Position numbers and translations under genes: made by a program. This document shows, one piece after another, positions 582-56,331 of a DNA stretch of 64,000 nt (positions are counted from its first letter, which is position 1; each line of letters opens with the position of its first letter). Source of the stretch: Anaerosolibacter sp. (lineage in GTDB: Bacteria > Bacillota > Clostridia > Peptostreptococcales > Thermotaleaceae); assembly GCF_029240175.1 (NCBI RefSeq), contig NZ_JARBTM010000020.1:1-64000 (forward strand), given 5' to 3'. The notes under the pieces were generated by a model. It was not told where the DNA came from, searched no databases, and saw nothing but the letters and a program-made list of their open reading frames with translations.

Positions 582-895
582 TTCGATAGAAATTTGCATA
601 ATGGCTGTTTTTTACATGAATCGTTGCCATTATTGATTACCCCTTAGAGTGGGTAAAAATTGAGTTTTTTACCCATTTATTGTCTTAGGGTGGGATTTGT
701 GGGAAATGTTGGCGAGACCCCTGTATTAAAAAATCACCTGTTTTTCTATAAAAAGAGCGTCTCCGACGCTTTCGCTAGGGGAACCTAGTTCCCCTTCGAC
801 GGCTGCTAGGCAGCCTGAGCACCCCTCTGACTACGGCATGGGAATACTTCCCCTGCACCCCTGATTCTTTGCTTTTTAAGGTTCTTCCCATCTTA
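582..895. repeat. Intergenic region with tandem short hairpins
   Basis: Non-coding gap between two convergent genes. From about 752 to 885 it holds several short perfect palindromes in a row: AGCGTC/GACGCT (756-770), AGGGGAAC/GTTCCCCT (777-795) and GGCTGC/GCAGCC (801-815), then a looser one around ccatgccgtagtc to about 852. The AGGGGAAC..GTTCCCCT hairpin resembles the AGGGAACTATTAGTTCCCT hairpin in the repeats at 59.1 and 62.1 kb, so it may be a distant relative. It may also end transcription of the chemoreceptor gene. No ORF or transposase remnant is seen. Confidence 0.4.
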
Positions 896-4661: not shown

Positions 4662-4723
4662 AATCTTTCATTGATTTTTTTTGTGAAAACTGTTACGCTA
4701 AATATGGAAATTGAATAATGAAA

Positions 4724-4816
4724 AGGGGGAGCTGGATGAGTCTGGCTGAGAGGGAGGTCCTATTGATACTTCGACCCATGTACCTGATCTGGATAATGCC
4801 AGCGTAGGAAGTTTTA
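4724..4816 (+). promoter_or_regulatory. TPP riboswitch (THI element)
   Basis: All conserved blocks are present in order: GGGGGAGC, GGCTGAGAGG, GACCCATG, ACCTGATCTGGATAATGCC and AGCGTAGGAAG. It is followed by an intrinsic terminator and thiT, giving the usual thiamine-repressed arrangement. A plausible promoter precedes it (TTGATT at 4671-4676, 17 nt, TACGCT at 4694-4699). Confidence 0.97.
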
Positions 4817-4830
4817 ATTTAATTAGAATG

Positions 4831-28383: not shown

Positions 28384-28480
28384 AGTCTCGACAATGGCAA
28401 ACCTGATGAAAATCAGCGACGCAAAGCTACAGGGGCTAAGGTGTATCATGGATGCACTAAGCCAGCCAGTTACCGAAGGA
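28384..28480 (+). promoter_or_regulatory. Cyclic-di-GMP-I riboswitch (GEMM)
   Basis: Conserved GEMM blocks in order: ATGGCAAACC, a short hairpin, GCGACGCAAAGCTACAGGGGCTAAG, a second hairpin (GTGTATC..GGATGCAC), then GCCAGCCAGTTACCGAAG. It is followed by a strong terminator and then the Tad/Flp genes, so cyclic-di-GMP level probably sets transcription of the pilus operon. Sign (on or off) cannot be read with certainty; many GEMM switches before pilus genes turn on. Confidence 0.95.
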
Positions 28481-51493: not shown

Positions 51494-51748
51494 ATTTCCC
51501 TCCTAAGCCCATTCAAGTGTTCCGCCTATTTGTATGTGCAATATTTGTACGATCATCCTTTCTATTGGATATTGCACCATGTTCTACCAATTTATTATTA
51601 ATATAATATACATCTATATGCCCAATGGCTCATAATGATGTGCATTTTATTTCGAATAGGTATGTGGATGGCTTAAAAAGGTATACTTTTAGAAAGATAG
51701 TAAAAACTAATATCATTCATTTTTCAATAAACTCTATTGAGGTGGGTG

Positions 51749-52213
51749 ATGTTTTTGTATGTGGTGTATCATGATCCCAGAGGAACCCATTCTTCTGTCA
51801 TTGCGGCTGCAGTTCACTTAAACTTGCTGCCCCTAGATAAAATACCTTCCAAACAGGATATTTTAAATGTTCCTCTTTTTGATCATTTGGGGAAAAAAGA
51901 TTTAGGCAGGCTGATCTTTCACGGAAAGGACGAATATGAAAACCAAATCTATACCATCGGTTGTCACCATGCTTCCCAGTTGATAACCCATGCCTTACCA
52001 TCGGTTTTTCAAATGATTGATAAGGATGCAAACGAAATATTGTGCATTGATACCACTAGGACGATGAATCTATGGATACAGGCTGGCAGTTTGAGTTCAA
52101 GACAACTGGGTATCGTTGACATAGGGCGATTCCTGCTATCCCACGGTATTCTAAATGCTTATCCAAAAATTGTATCTATCGTAAAAAATACAAAATTAAA
52201 AGTAGCACCATAA
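51749..52213 (+). CDS. DUF3189 family protein
   Basis: 154 aa. Motif YHDPRGTHSSVIAAAVHLNLLP and GCHHASQLITHALPS fit DUF3189, a family of spore-forming Firmicutes with unknown function. Start chosen at ATG 51749, 6 nt after GAGG; a TTG at 51737 lies upstream. Convergent with the csoR-like gene. Confidence 0.78.
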   Translation: MFLYVVYHDPRGTHSSVIAAAVHLNLLPLDKIPSKQDILNVPLFDHLGKKDLGRLIFHGKDEYENQIYTIGCHHASQLITHALPSVFQMIDKDANEILCIDTTRTMNLWIQAGSLSSRQLGIVDIGRFLLSHGILNAYPKIVSIVKNTKLKVAP

Positions 52214-52228
52214 GGCGCTACTTTATAA
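52197..52228. terminator. Bidirectional terminator
   Basis: AAAGTAGC/GCTACTTT with inner ACC/GGC, shared by DUF3189 and the CsoR-like gene. Confidence 0.8.
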
Positions 52229-52490
52229 ATTTTACAAGGGTATTTAATACCTTCTCAACTTTATCCTTTTGAATCATTTCTCCTTCGTCTACATTGATGA
52301 GACACTCTTTGGCATGCTCCTCCATAATCACAAGGCCCACCTTGTGGATGGATGCCTTTATTGCTGCAATCTGGAGCAATATATCATCACAAGACTTATC
52401 CTCTTCCACCATTTTCTCTATACCAGCTATGTGTCCCTTTATGGTTCTCAATCGATTGATTACATCACTCTTTGCCTTTTCCCTAGACAT
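52218..52490 (-). CDS. CsoR/RcnR-family transcriptional repressor
   Basis: 90 aa all-helical repressor (DUF156). Metal-site positions are C34 (KSCDDIL), H59 and C63 (EEHAKECL): the full Cys-His-Cys triad typical of copper-sensing CsoR, rather than the Cys-only site of persulfide-sensing CstR. Yet it is the last gene of a sulfur-handling operon whose promoter has a CsoR-type GC palindrome, so it probably represses its own operon. What it senses (Cu or reactive sulfur) is open. 83 nt after DsrE2. Confidence 0.9.
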   Translation of the reverse strand: MSREKAKSDVINRLRTIKGHIAGIEKMVEEDKSCDDILLQIAAIKASIHKVGLVIMEEHAKECLINVDEGEMIQKDKVEKVLNTLVKFIK

Positions 52491-52573: not shown

Positions 52574-53047
52574 TTAGATAAATAGATTCACATTTGCCTC
52601 ATCGGCTTCACCAAGATAACTGGCTACACCAGCTAGCTCTACACCATCAATGAGTTCCTCTTCTTTGATGCCCATTACATCCATGGTCATGGTACAGGCA
52701 ATCATCTTAACCCCCATCATCTGAGCACTTTCAATAAGCTCTGGCAGGCTGTTTACATTCTTCTTTTTCATAATACTTTTCATCATTTGGGTACCCATGC
52801 CGCCAAAGTTCATTTTGGATAGACTTAATTTTTCTGCACCTCTAGGCATCATCCATCCAAACATGCTTTCCATGAAATCCTTTTTCACCTTGACTTTTTT
52901 AGCCTTTCTAAGGGTATTTAATCCCCAGAAAGTGAAGAACATGGTTACTTCACTACCCATGGCTGCAGCACCGTTGGCAATGATTAAACTGGCCATTACC
53001 TTATCTAGGTCACCACTGAATACAATAATTGTCTTCTTATCTCCCAT
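52574..53047 (-). CDS. DsrE2-like sulfur carrier protein
   Basis: 157 aa, DsrE/F-like fold of the DsrE2 branch: VFSGDLDKVMASLIIANGAAAMGSEVTMFFTFWG and the conserved Cys in KMIACTMTMDVMG. Two hydrophobic stretches suggest membrane contact. These proteins carry sulfane sulfur with TusA and rhodanese. 11 nt after tusA. Confidence 0.9.
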   Translation of the reverse strand: MGDKKTIIVFSGDLDKVMASLIIANGAAAMGSEVTMFFTFWGLNTLRKAKKVKVKKDFMESMFGWMMPRGAEKLSLSKMNFGGMGTQMMKSIMKKKNVNSLPELIESAQMMGVKMIACTMTMDVMGIKEEELIDGVELAGVASYLGEADEANVNLFI

Positions 53048-53058
53048 AATTTCTCCCC

Positions 53059-53283
53059 TTACTTTCTAAGGATTTTCGCTTGTATTTCTGTATCTCCATC
53101 CACAAGCTCCAACAATTCATGACCTGTTTTCTTGCACCAAGCTTGAATATCTTTCGTGAATCCTCTATCTGTCACTTTTACATGAATTACATCTCCAACA
53201 ACAGCTTCCTTCGCAGCCTTGAATACCTGCATAATAGGCCCGGGACACTGCAAGCCCTTACAATTTAAATGAATATCTGCCAT
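53059..53283 (-). CDS. TusA/SirA-like sulfurtransferase
   Basis: 74 aa. Catalytic Cys13 in GLQCPGPIMQ; fold and length match TusA/SirA. Carries persulfide between donor and acceptor, here probably the CoADR-rhodanese and DsrE2 made by the same operon. 26 nt after the CoADR-rhodanese gene. Confidence 0.95.
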   Translation of the reverse strand: MADIHLNCKGLQCPGPIMQVFKAAKEAVVGDVIHVKVTDRGFTKDIQAWCKKTGHELLELVDGDTEIQAKILRK

Positions 53284-53309: not shown

Positions 53310-54962
53310 CTATTCTCGTTCGAAAGGATAGGCATTCATGCCGCCTTCAAGAATTCTAAGCTGCTCAAAGCCTAATTCCTTAAGTTTCAAGTATGCCAAA
53401 TAGGCATTTTTACCGATTTTACATACCAAAACTGTCTCTTTGTTCTTATCTAGCTCTTCCGCCCTCATATATAATTCTCCAGAAGGGATATTTACTGCAC
53501 CTGGAATTGTACCAATCATAAAGGAGCCTTCATCCCGTACATCGATTATTTGCAGCTCTTTCGCTCTGTTTCTCATCTCAATAGGACCAATTCCTTTTAC
53601 TCTTCCTGTCAGCTTATTGCTTAGTACGTTGGCTGCCAAGATCGTAGATGACATGGCCATGGAAAACGGCGGCGCATAAGCTAGATCCAACTTTTCTAAG
53701 TCTTCTACCTTTGCCCCAAAGGTGATGGCCGTTGCAATGATATCAATAGGTTTATCCACAACCCCTTCTCCTACCACCTGAGCCCCTAGAATTTTATGAC
53801 TTGCTTTATCCACAATGAGCTTTGTAATGATCTCTCTATAGCCAGGGTAATAATGGGCTCTGTCATTGGCAGGTACCAATGCTGTCTCCACCTCAAAACC
53901 AGCCTTAACCGCGTCTCTTTCTGACAATCCTGTTTTCCCAGCATTCAATTTAAAGAGCTTCACGATGGTTGTACCCAGCACACCTTTTAAACTGTCTTTT
54001 TCCCCTTTGGCCAAATTGATGCCTGCAATTCTACCCATCTTATTTGCTGTCGATCCCATAGGGTACCATGCGGGCTGTCCTGTGATGAGATTTACATTTT
54101 CTGCACAATCTCCCACGGCGTAAATGTTTTTTTCGCTTGTTTCCATGTACTCATTTACCCGTATGGCTCCCGTGGGCCCTAACGCCAAACCAATTTCCTT
54201 GGCCAACTGGTTGTTTGGTCTCACACCCACCGACATAATTACCAAGTCTGCTTCAATTTCTCGTTGATCTGTGATTACCTTTCTCACGTTATCTGCCTCA
54301 CCTGTCAAGGAAAGTACTTTTTCACTGGTATAGATACGGACACCCTGATCTACCATATAGTTTTGGGCATAAAGGGCCATCTCTTCATCAAATGGGGGTA
54401 AGATATGGGGTACCAATTCTACGATAGCTACTTCAATCCCCTTTTCATGAAGGTTTTCAGCAACCTCTAATCCAATAAAACCACCGCCAATGACTACAGC
54501 TTTTTTTACAGCACCTTGATCCACGAGTTCACGGATGGCCTGGGCATCATTTACCGTTCTTACAGGAAAAACTCCCTTTAGATCCCTGCCCTCAATAGGG
54601 GGTACAAAGGGGGATGCGCCTGTGGCAATCACAAGGTCATCATAGGTATAGTGCTTCATCTCCCCCGTGGATAAGTCCTTCACATCTACACGCTTTAAGG
54701 CTTTATCGACACCAACCGCTTCATGCTTTGTAAAAACATCGATACCCGTCAACAGCTTGAAATCTTCAGGTGTCTTTACCACCAATTCCTTCTTTTCTTC
54801 AATAACACCACCAATATAATAAGGCAGCCCGCATCCTGCATAAGAGATGTACTCATCCTTGGTTACAACCACAACCTCTGCCTTAGGATTTTCCCTTTTC
54901 ATTTTGGCTGCAGTCTTGGTACCCGCAGCTACAGCGCCAATTACCAGTACTTTTCGACCCAT
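53310..54962 (-). CDS. CoA-disulfide reductase with C-terminal rhodanese domain
   Basis: 550 aa: FAD-binding GAVAAGTKTAAK, catalytic Cys44 (YAGCGLPYYIGG), NADH-binding VIGGGFIGLEVAENL, FAD motif YAVGDCAE, dimerisation domain, then a rhodanese domain (about 455-550) with Cys514 (LVCKIGKNAYL). The fused enzyme reduces CoA persulfides/polysulfides and CoA disulfide. Start chosen at ATG 54962, 7 nt after AGGAGG. 17 nt after the selenoprotein gene, so very probably the same mRNA. Confidence 0.95.
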   Translation of the reverse strand: MGRKVLVIGAVAAGTKTAAKMKRENPKAEVVVVTKDEYISYAGCGLPYYIGGVIEEKKELVVKTPEDFKLLTGIDVFTKHEAVGVDKALKRVDVKDLSTGEMKHYTYDDLVIATGASPFVPPIEGRDLKGVFPVRTVNDAQAIRELVDQGAVKKAVVIGGGFIGLEVAENLHEKGIEVAIVELVPHILPPFDEEMALYAQNYMVDQGVRIYTSEKVLSLTGEADNVRKVITDQREIEADLVIMSVGVRPNNQLAKEIGLALGPTGAIRVNEYMETSEKNIYAVGDCAENVNLITGQPAWYPMGSTANKMGRIAGINLAKGEKDSLKGVLGTTIVKLFKLNAGKTGLSERDAVKAGFEVETALVPANDRAHYYPGYREIITKLIVDKASHKILGAQVVGEGVVDKPIDIIATAITFGAKVEDLEKLDLAYAPPFSMAMSSTILAANVLSNKLTGRVKGIGPIEMRNRAKELQIIDVRDEGSFMIGTIPGAVNIPSGELYMRAEELDKNKETVLVCKIGKNAYLAYLKLKELGFEQLRILEGGMNAYPFERE

Positions 54963-54979
54963 TTCCATTCCTCCTATTA

Positions 54980-55171
54980 CTATTTTTCCAATTGATTCAA
55001 TCGGTCTAATAATGCATCTACATCAACACGATAATTTTTGCAAGCATATCCTATGCTTTTATAAAGGGCTCCGCCTCAACCAAAACATCGAATGCCGAAT
55101 TCCTTAAAGATTTTCTCTGCCTCGGAATGCTTTGCCAACACATCATAAATAATGGAATCTTGATCAAACAA
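54980..55171 (-). CDS. DUF1858 selenoprotein with Cys-x-x-Sec motif (Sec32)
   Basis: 64 codons from TTG 55171 (AGGTGAG just upstream; an in-frame TGA before it rules out a longer start) to TAG 54980. TGA at 55076-55078 is codon 32. The product reads MFDQDSIIYDVLAKHSEAEK, IFKEFGIRCFG-U-GGALYKSIGY, ACKNYRVDVDALLDRLNQLEK: the DUF1858 fold with the usual CxxC changed to C29-F-G-U32. A 6-bp hairpin with loop AGGAT follows the UGA (bSECIS). Both sides of the UGA are conserved-looking, and the promoter and neighbours fit. Likely a cytoplasmic thiol/selenol redox protein for reactive sulfur. First gene of the five-gene operon. Confidence 0.9.
55042..55078 (-). promoter_or_regulatory. UGA codon and bacterial SECIS hairpin
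   Basis: UGA (55078-55076), 17 nt, then AAGCAT-AGGAT-ATGCTT (55058-55042). The loop is identical to that at 8617-8631 and begins 23 nt after the UGA (25 in the other gene). Confidence 0.8.
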
Positions 55172-55196: not shown

Positions 55197-55215
55197 TACC
55201 CCCTGGGCGGGGGTA
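55197..55215. promoter_or_regulatory. CsoR-family operator
   Basis: TACCCCC-N5-GGGGGTA, a G/C-tract palindrome flanked by T/A as in CsoR/CstR/FrmR operators. It lies right after the -10 box of the sulfur operon promoter, where a repressor would block transcription. The only family member in the window is the last gene of the same operon. Confidence 0.75.
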
Positions 55216-55226
55216 TTTCTAGTTAT

Positions 55227-55255
55227 ATATTATTCCTTCCTTCGCAAAAAGTCAA
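55227..55255 (-). promoter_or_regulatory. Sigma-A promoter of the sulfur/selenoprotein operon
   Basis: TTGACT (55250-55255), 17-nt spacer, TAATAT (55227-55232). Predicted start about 7 nt downstream overlaps the CsoR-type operator. Confidence 0.85.
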
Positions 55256-55893: not shown

Positions 55894-56331
55894 ATGTTAA
55901 AAGTATTGATCTTTAAGAAACGAACTCTGTATGTGGCTCTAGGTATACTCCTGGCAGTAATCATTGGTATTGCAATTATGGTAACAATGTCAGGTTCAGA
56001 CGAAACGTTTTCAGAAACCATAAAGTACGCCTACAAAAAGATTTCTCCCGAGCAGGCGAAAATACTCATAGAAAAAAATCAAGATGTGGTCATATTAGAC
56101 GTTCGCAATGAAAAAGAGTATGACCAAGGCCATCTTCCTCAAGCCACCCTCATGACTTTTCGGGAACTAAAGAAGAGCCTGTCTGATTTTGATCGTGAGC
56201 AGATCTATATGCTCTACGGTGAAGATGACCGAGACAGTGCAAAGGTCGCTCAATACCTAGGAAACAATGGATTTGCGAGAATCTATATGCTAACGGGCGG
56301 CATAGAACAATGGCCCTATGAAATTGAGTAA
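55894..56331 (+). CDS. Membrane-anchored rhodanese-like protein without catalytic Cys
   Basis: 145 aa: TM anchor (about 12-31) and a rhodanese domain (about 48-143) with VVILDVRNEKEYDQGHLPQA and YMLTGGIEQW. The active-site loop reads YMLYGEDDRDSAKVA: Tyr stands where Cys is expected, and the whole protein has no cysteine. It cannot transfer sulfur the usual way, so it may be a binding or regulatory module. Start ATG follows GTGAGGTG. Ends at a shared terminator. Confidence 0.85.
   Translation: MLKVLIFKKRTLYVALGILLAVIIGIAIMVTMSGSDETFSETIKYAYKKISPEQAKILIEKNQDVVILDVRNEKEYDQGHLPQATLMTFRELKKSLSDFDREQIYMLYGEDDRDSAKVAQYLGNNGFARIYMLTGGIEQWPYEIE

Follow-up and report, generated by a model that had tools for sequence, protein, structure and literature searches.

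A predicted DUF1858 selenoprotein leading a probable reactive-sulfur operon in Anaerosolibacter-type Clostridia

A short DUF1858 gene carrying an in-frame UGA codon lies directly ahead of a gene for a CoA-disulfide reductase (CoADR)-rhodanese fusion in the 64,000-nucleotide stretch of Anaerosolibacter sp. DNA analysed here (the window). The locus raises the question of whether this codon is read as selenocysteine (Sec) and, if so, what the product, referred to here as Sec-DUF1858, could do among its sulfur-transfer partners. A DUF1858 protein with a CxxU motif (PF08984, WP_012065717.1) has already been catalogued as a predicted selenoprotein (PMC9312934, PMC13188914). These entries share both domain and motif with Sec-DUF1858, and the table passages in which they appear give neither context nor function; the term "DUF" is absent from the main text of PMC2398784 and PMC5029168, the earlier sources cited by PMC9312934 for the DUF1858 selenoprotein. 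The original prediction had taken the combination of Sec form and gene context to be perhaps undescribed. The Sec form itself was already on record, while the operon link looks new, with no connection of Sec-DUF1858 to CoADR, TusA or DsrE2 found in the literature searched, which left aside preprints and most subscription journals. Beside the catalogue passages, the CxGUGG subfamily, its SECIS element, its clade and the conserved operon are additions, and the conserved tie to the CoADR-TusA-DsrE2 operon seems to be new. For a protein that stands on those selenoproteome lists without a function, the operon supplies a testable hypothesis and named partners.

The UGA codon and the Sec machinery

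The gene and the features associated with it are summarised in Table 1. Its coordinates were correctly predicted and apply to the minus strand, where the frame runs from a TTG at 55171 to a TAG at 54980 and encodes LFDQDSIIYDVLAKHSEAEKIFKEFGIRCFGUGGALYKSIGYACKNYRVDVDALLDRLNQLEK; translation of the same interval on the plus strand gives a nonsense frame. The TTG start, also as predicted, aligns with the ATG starts of relatives and is preceded by a purine-rich site, and the UGA is the sole TGA of the frame, with reading continuing to the TAG. When the UGA is read as Cys, the product passes both the TIGR03980 profile (52.6 bits, cut-off 44.95) and the PF08984 profile (35.4 bits, cut-off 32.2); in a six-frame profile search that translated across the stop codon the score was 29.5, under the cut-off. 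The host genome, of 3.87 Mb in 50 contigs, carries five DUF1858 copies, two of them with an in-frame UGA.

Table 1. Features of the Sec-DUF1858 operon; positions are those of the window
Feature	Position	Strand	Remarks
Sigma-70-type promoter, TTGACT-17-TAATAT	55227..55255	minus	consensus scan
CsoR-family operator-like inverted repeat, TACCCCC-TGGGC-GGGGGTA	55197..55215		strandless; sole exact match in the 64-kb window
Sec-DUF1858 gene	54980..55171	minus	63 codons + TAG; CFGU motif
In-frame UGA, codon 32, very probably read as selenocysteine	55076..55078	minus	aligned with second Cys of CxxC; same column in UGA-bearing relatives
Bacterial SECIS-like hairpin, 7-bp stem, GGA loop	55042..55058	minus	covariation in 16 genes; loop 24 nt after UGA
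CoA-disulfide (persulfide) reductase-rhodanese fusion	53310..54968	minus	start 54968 or 54962
TusA sulfurtransferase, CPGP motif	53059..53283	minus	PF01206; Cys13 kept in 13/13
DsrE2-family sulfur carrier	52574..53047	minus	PF13686; Cys118 kept in 13/13
CsoR-family repressor	52218..52490	minus	PF02583; Cys34, His59, Cys63 in 10/10 orthologues
Terminator-like hairpin closing the operon	52199..52224	minus	

The proposed conversion of CxxC to C-F-G-U is borne out by aligning 33 relatives, 10 of them Cys and 23 Sec forms, picked by us from the retrieved loci. C29-x-x-U32 aligns with CxxC, Gly26, Cys29, Gly31 and Cys/Sec32 are invariant, and some homologues have a Cys where the UGA stands. Coding-type conservation, on which the original prediction had been made to depend, does continue downstream of the UGA. 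Among all pairs of the 14 Sec genes of groups A and B, differences at the three codon positions amount to 1008/606/1600 over the 30 codons before the UGA and 1029/647/1573 over the 30 codons after it, with the same excess at third positions. The genome likewise contains selA, selB, selC and selD, the genes that had been named as indispensable, and contig C24 carries the Sec machinery in a cluster (selB 387.2, tRNA-Sec 74.1, selD 402.4 and selA 631.7 bits). SelB was detected at E < 1e-108 in all 12 genomes of the order that bear a GG-type Sec gene; as a statistical link this is weak because 244 of 393 order genomes exceed the selB cut-off anyway. The selD gene of the host (L043:1012-2166) has itself one in-frame UGA in the matched stretch.

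The hairpin predicted to follow the UGA is present, with a 7-bp stem and a 3-nt loop. Its stability was considered, and rejected, as proof of a SECIS element: z is -0.15 against dinucleotide shuffles and 31% of synonymous shuffles fold at as low an energy, while over 42 genes the synonymous-shuffle energies give a mean z of -1.22, with 39 of the 42 negative. Since folding energy alone is unremarkable for this hairpin, covariation was used as the evidence, in a set of 16 Sec genes comprising group A, group B and two hybrid-cluster-type genes, compared with 500 shuffles. The stem is paired in 92.9% of cells and shows 11 double-change cells, and the numbers of paired and double-change cells and the covariation score were each matched by none of the 500 shuffles; the number of pairs with a double change (two) and that of further pair types (four) were as high in 435 and 478 shuffles, respectively. 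Sliding the partners by one to three columns leaves at most two double-change cells. A-U is replaced by G-C in five and by C-G or U-A in six of the 16 sequences, the innermost pair being A-U, C-G or U-A according to whether Tyr, Asp or Asn is encoded, with two U-U mismatches, and an Ile-to-Val change is matched by a silent change of a Tyr codon. As the changes follow clades, with all five G-C cells in group B, the double changes represent a handful of events rather than eleven. The gene provides an example of a bacterial SECIS element with covarying base pairs, in part through amino-acid changes.

Groups C and D carry a covarying stem of their own, displaced by a further 5 nt; its 13 double-change cells are a number reached in none of 500 shuffles (24 of 25 sequences were used, locus L157 being left out, and locus L118 is in neither stem set). 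Of 42 Sec genes, 32 have a GGN loop closed by 6 bp or more at one or other of the two sites, as does one of 34 Cys rows. This comparison is no independent test because the choice of sites was guided by the Sec genes themselves and the rows share ancestry. One DUF1858 Cys gene, at locus L024, already has a 6-bp hairpin with a GGT loop in its SIGDA codons, and palindromic coding of S-I-G-D-A may predispose DUF1858 to gain a SECIS element.

Distribution and origins of the Sec forms

A profile built from seven Sec proteins was employed to search the class and the order. Among 391 genomes of the class, the top 24 matches, in 23 genomes including the host, each contain one TGA and the next matches contain none; one further TGA-bearing row ranks far lower (G640:C79) and has an odd CGU motif. 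In the order (393 genomes), the 14 best matches, in 12 genomes, carry the TGA, and one more such row, of the hybrid-cluster type, lies lower (G031:C6). A pattern scan for GGNATNNNNTGYTTYGGNTGAGGNGG over 84,980 species genomes yielded 44 stretches, of which 31 were confirmed by the profile (E < 1e-9), 3 were weak and 10 unmatched; the confirmed stretches include those of Thermotalea metallivorans, Geosporobacter, Maledivibacter and Lutispora.

A chance in-frame UGA can be excluded because dozens of genomes have the same frame with the UGA at the equivalent position. Under the standard code reading would end at this codon, so that the gene would be decayed or encode a peptide of 31 residues; conservation and covariation downstream of the UGA, its recurrence in dozens of genomes and the presence of the Sec machinery all argue against a true stop, which we consider extremely improbable. 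On this sequence evidence, the UGA of Sec-DUF1858 very probably specifies Sec, with the SECIS-like hairpin assisting its decoding.

In a tree of 75 rows, which rests on 64 columns and leaves many forks open, the GG-type Sec proteins split from the Cys forms with branch support of 100/99, and group A is supported at 96/90. No Cys version of the CxGUGG subfamily (CFGCGG) was present among the retrieved loci, the pattern scan having sought UGA only and the list of class matches being limited by score. Two hybrid-cluster-type Sec forms nest inside the Cys side of the tree and, judged by this placement, are of separate origin from the GG clade, so that the DUF1858 domain appears to have undergone a second, separate switch to Sec. 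They occur at loci L050 (genome G001, around 9000) and L152 (genome G031, around 8000), with the motifs CLGUPG and CLGUGG, respectively; both genes have an AGCATC-GGT-GATGCT hairpin, and at L050 purA is the next gene after DUF1858. A further DUF1858-like frame, at L157 (genome G640, minus strand, around 8000), reads SGCGUGG, with Sec two residues past Cys, and is followed by a gene for an Rrf2-type regulator which is CymR-like and scores under the CymR cut-off.

The operon, its conservation and its repressor

The neighbours of the Sec-DUF1858 gene were named correctly in the original prediction, as judged by profile matches, and the gene order is Sec-DUF1858, CoADR-rhodanese, TusA, DsrE2 and CsoR-family repressor; order and spacing suggest that the five genes are co-transcribed. 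The predicted gap of 17 nt to the CoADR gene holds for a start at ATG 54962 and shrinks to 11 nt for ATG 54968, with the sequence AGGAGG-AATGGAAATGG favouring 54962. CoADR scores 456.2 and falls below the TIGR03385 equivalog cut-off of 578.8. Its Cys46 (CGLPY) and the rhodanese Cys516 (both numbered from 54968) are kept in 13 of 13 true CoADR rows, a 14th row of the alignment (L154) being a stray rhodanese match. A gene for a rhodanese-like protein whose N-terminus is hydrophobic (55894-56331, plus strand) and a DUF3189 gene (51737-52213, plus strand) flank the operon, and both keep their places in several relatives.

A CoADR protein search of 297 genomes of the order yielded 13 close orthologues of at least 66% identity, the host's own included, and TusA and DsrE2 genes adjoin CoADR in all 13. 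Sec-DUF1858 lies directly ahead of CoADR in eight of them (G000, G004, G015, G031, G020, G042, G026 and G037) and is missing from the other five (G006, G009, G013, G011 and G010), where no Cys DUF1858 occurs within the stretches examined. Since these five operons possess neither the gene nor a Cys replacement, Sec-DUF1858 is an accessory component. On the CoADR tree, presence or absence of the Sec gene must have changed at least twice. A CsoR gene adjoins DsrE2 in eight of the 13 loci and lies beyond an opposite ORF in G004; none was seen near DsrE2 in the stretches examined of G010, G011, G026 and G037. At locus L154 (G067), also of group A, the Sec gene adjoins CsoR and retains both the promoter and the operator-like repeat, and CoADR, TusA and DsrE2 were not found at this locus. 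All nine group A Sec genes are located at the CoADR/CsoR type of locus, eight with CoADR-TusA-DsrE2 and that of L154 with CsoR only.

Promoter-like sites are not in excess in the region (9, against a shuffle mean of 9.9), and a TTGAC...TA...T site stands ahead of the first gene at 14 of 14 group A/CoADR loci, the loose pattern occurring also at 12 of 33 Sec loci outside group A. The operator-like repeat has three matches in the window when up to three mismatches are allowed, against a chance mean of 1.37. An inverted repeat of the C4/G4 type follows the -10 box at 14 of 14 group A/CoADR loci (13 within a limit of 75 nt and the 14th, L162, 93 nt upstream), while beyond group A three of 33 Sec loci match the loose repeat pattern, none of them among the five that are hisI-linked.

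CstR proteins, the dithiol, non-metal type of the family, are not known to have a His at the metal position. The repressor encoded here has both Cys residues and, in 10 of 10 orthologues, a His at that position, and given this conserved His we do not claim membership of CstR. Cys34-His59-Cys63 corresponds to the residue set and spacing of the copper CsoRs. The pair of Cys residues would suit sulfur sensing by a dithiol and the His would suit copper sensing, and the repressor may respond to a signal other than persulfide.

If the signal for the operon were copper, or some other soft metal, the role of the CxxU protein would be to bind Cu(I) or shield thiols, and CoADR, TusA and DsrE2 would repair thiol pools damaged by copper. 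The invariant Cys-His-Cys set is in keeping with this, as is the repeat, given that the pseudo-palindromes recognised by most CsoR/RcnR proteins contain runs of four or more G or C (PMC10318464). That rule covers most of the repressor family and does not single out copper (PMC10318464); moreover, the five-gene unit contains no copper transporter or chaperone gene, and the partners are all of the sulfur-transfer or CoA-disulfide-reductase type. We regard the copper explanation as quite improbable.

Fold, sister contexts and possible function

An AlphaFold2 model, computed from the 33-row alignment with Cys in place of Sec, consists of four helices with a mean pLDDT of 94.3. The best matches among solved structures (Foldseek) are 2k53 and 2k5e, with TM scores by query of 0.86 and 0.88 and E values of 2.2e-3 and 8.5e-3, respectively; no solved structure matched at E ≤ 0.001. 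A thioredoxin fold was rejected: the model has no strand of three or more residues, and there is no thioredoxin among the 44 solved-structure matches. Membership of the TIGR03980 profile (hybrid cluster protein-associated redox disulfide domain) and the helical fold are shared with 2k53 and 2k5e. In 2k53 and the aligned Cys relatives, however, Cys at the Sec position is followed by Pro or Met, whereas Sec-DUF1858 has Gly-Gly, and in contrast to the TIGR03980 type no hybrid cluster protein is encoded among the operon genes. The next structural match is the N-terminal domain of YtfE, and by sequence also that of ScdA.

The sister Sec genes occupy other surroundings. In group B, present in five genomes including the host, Sec-DUF1858 follows hisF-hisI; the host's copy is its second Sec-DUF1858 gene (CFGUGG; G000:C24:37208-37396, L004:1498-1689). 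In group D, an ORF related to CoADR by BLAST lies upstream of the Sec gene in 15 of 17 loci, at L140 with a small overlapping ORF in between; of the other two, L143 has a different ORF upstream and L087 has no sequence there. At L137, the one group D locus tested, the upstream ORF is thioredoxin-reductase-like (205.5 bits, below the cut-off of 343.45), and the downstream genes are those for the SCIFF maturase (scfB) and pduL. The location of two groups beside a pyridine-nucleotide flavin reductase suits a redox protein that would need a reductase, and because sister Sec genes sit in unrelated contexts (hisFI; pduL, scfB) the DUF1858 domain is unspecific to sulfur.

These diverse places, and the group D genes behind ORFs related to CoADR or thioredoxin reductase, would fit a general selenol/thiol carrier which transfers electrons from a flavin reductase to many targets, such as disulfides, or Fe-S or nitrosative repair as for ScdA and the hybrid cluster protein, and whose place in the sulfur operon would serve only for access to a common reductase. 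YtfE and ScdA have this fold in their N-terminal domain, which in ScdA supports nitrite reduction (PMC12412097). Group A, however, is a separate clade, with all of its genes at one type of locus and with a common operator-like repeat, which argues for a dedicated job, and we hold the general carrier to be rather unlikely.

The best explanation, to which as a whole we would give an even chance of being right, is that Sec-DUF1858 is a 63-residue, all-helical CxxU selenoprotein of the DUF1858 family which heads a reactive-sulfur operon in Anaerosolibacter-type Clostridia and acts as a thioredoxin-like selenol/thiol reductant of persulfides. In favour of a sulfur role, the gene leads eight of 13 operons, and its partner proteins keep their active-site Cys residues. 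The persulfide-reductant role itself is proposed from this context and by analogy with the two systems that follow.

In Enterococcus faecalis, CoAPR, a CoADR-rhodanese under the control of CstR, converts CoA persulfide to CoA and H2S (PMC9405070). The cst-like operon of that organism (CstR, CoAPR, RhdA, RhdB) shares with the present one the CoADR-rhodanese, a CsoR-family repressor and sulfurtransferases; it differs in that no selenoprotein is named in the passages on it, whereas here the genes of sulfurtransferase type are those for TusA and DsrE2 and the repressor is of the Cys-His-Cys kind (PMC9405070). Neither SQR nor persulfide dioxygenase, as in the Staphylococcus aureus unit, is among the five genes here. 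The same passages on the E. faecalis operon name neither enzyme (PMC9405070). In the yrk cluster of Bacillus licheniformis a CstR-like repressor controls DsrE, TusA, a rhodanese and the thioredoxin YdfQ, and the authors of that study note that persulfide is reduced to H2S by thioredoxin (PMC9918477). This yrkD-ydfQ cluster shares with our operon the CsoR-family repressor, DsrE, TusA, rhodanese and a small redox protein, but its route is oxidising, through SQR and persulfide dioxygenase, where the present operon has CoADR and a selenoprotein of another fold (PMC9918477).

Under the persulfide-reductant explanation, a thiol-reactive sulfur signal, or a metal, would lift the repressor, and sulfane sulfur would pass as persulfides on rhodanese Cys516, TusA Cys13 and DsrE2 Cys118. 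The Sec32 selenolate would attack the persulfide, with release of HS-, and Cys29 would resolve the intermediate to yield a Cys29-Sec32 selenenylsulfide, which could be re-reduced by NADH via the CoADR flavin or by the general thioredoxin system. Sec-DUF1858 would in this manner fill the part that thioredoxin possibly plays in the Bacillus yrk cluster, with another fold and with selenium. A bolder variant, which we judge unlikely, is a selenium-based anaerobic relay in which sulfane sulfur from TusA, DsrE2 or CoA persulfide would be accepted by Sec-DUF1858 in the form of a protein perselenide (Se-SH), to be turned over by CoADR-rhodanese with NADH; if true, a selenol carrier would replace thioredoxin in sulfur detoxification or polysulfide use.

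Elsewhere in the window, three Rfam matches exceed the gathering score: a Clostridiales-2 RNA (789-870, minus strand), a TPP riboswitch (4715-4827, plus strand) and a c-di-GMP-I riboswitch (28386-28477, plus strand).
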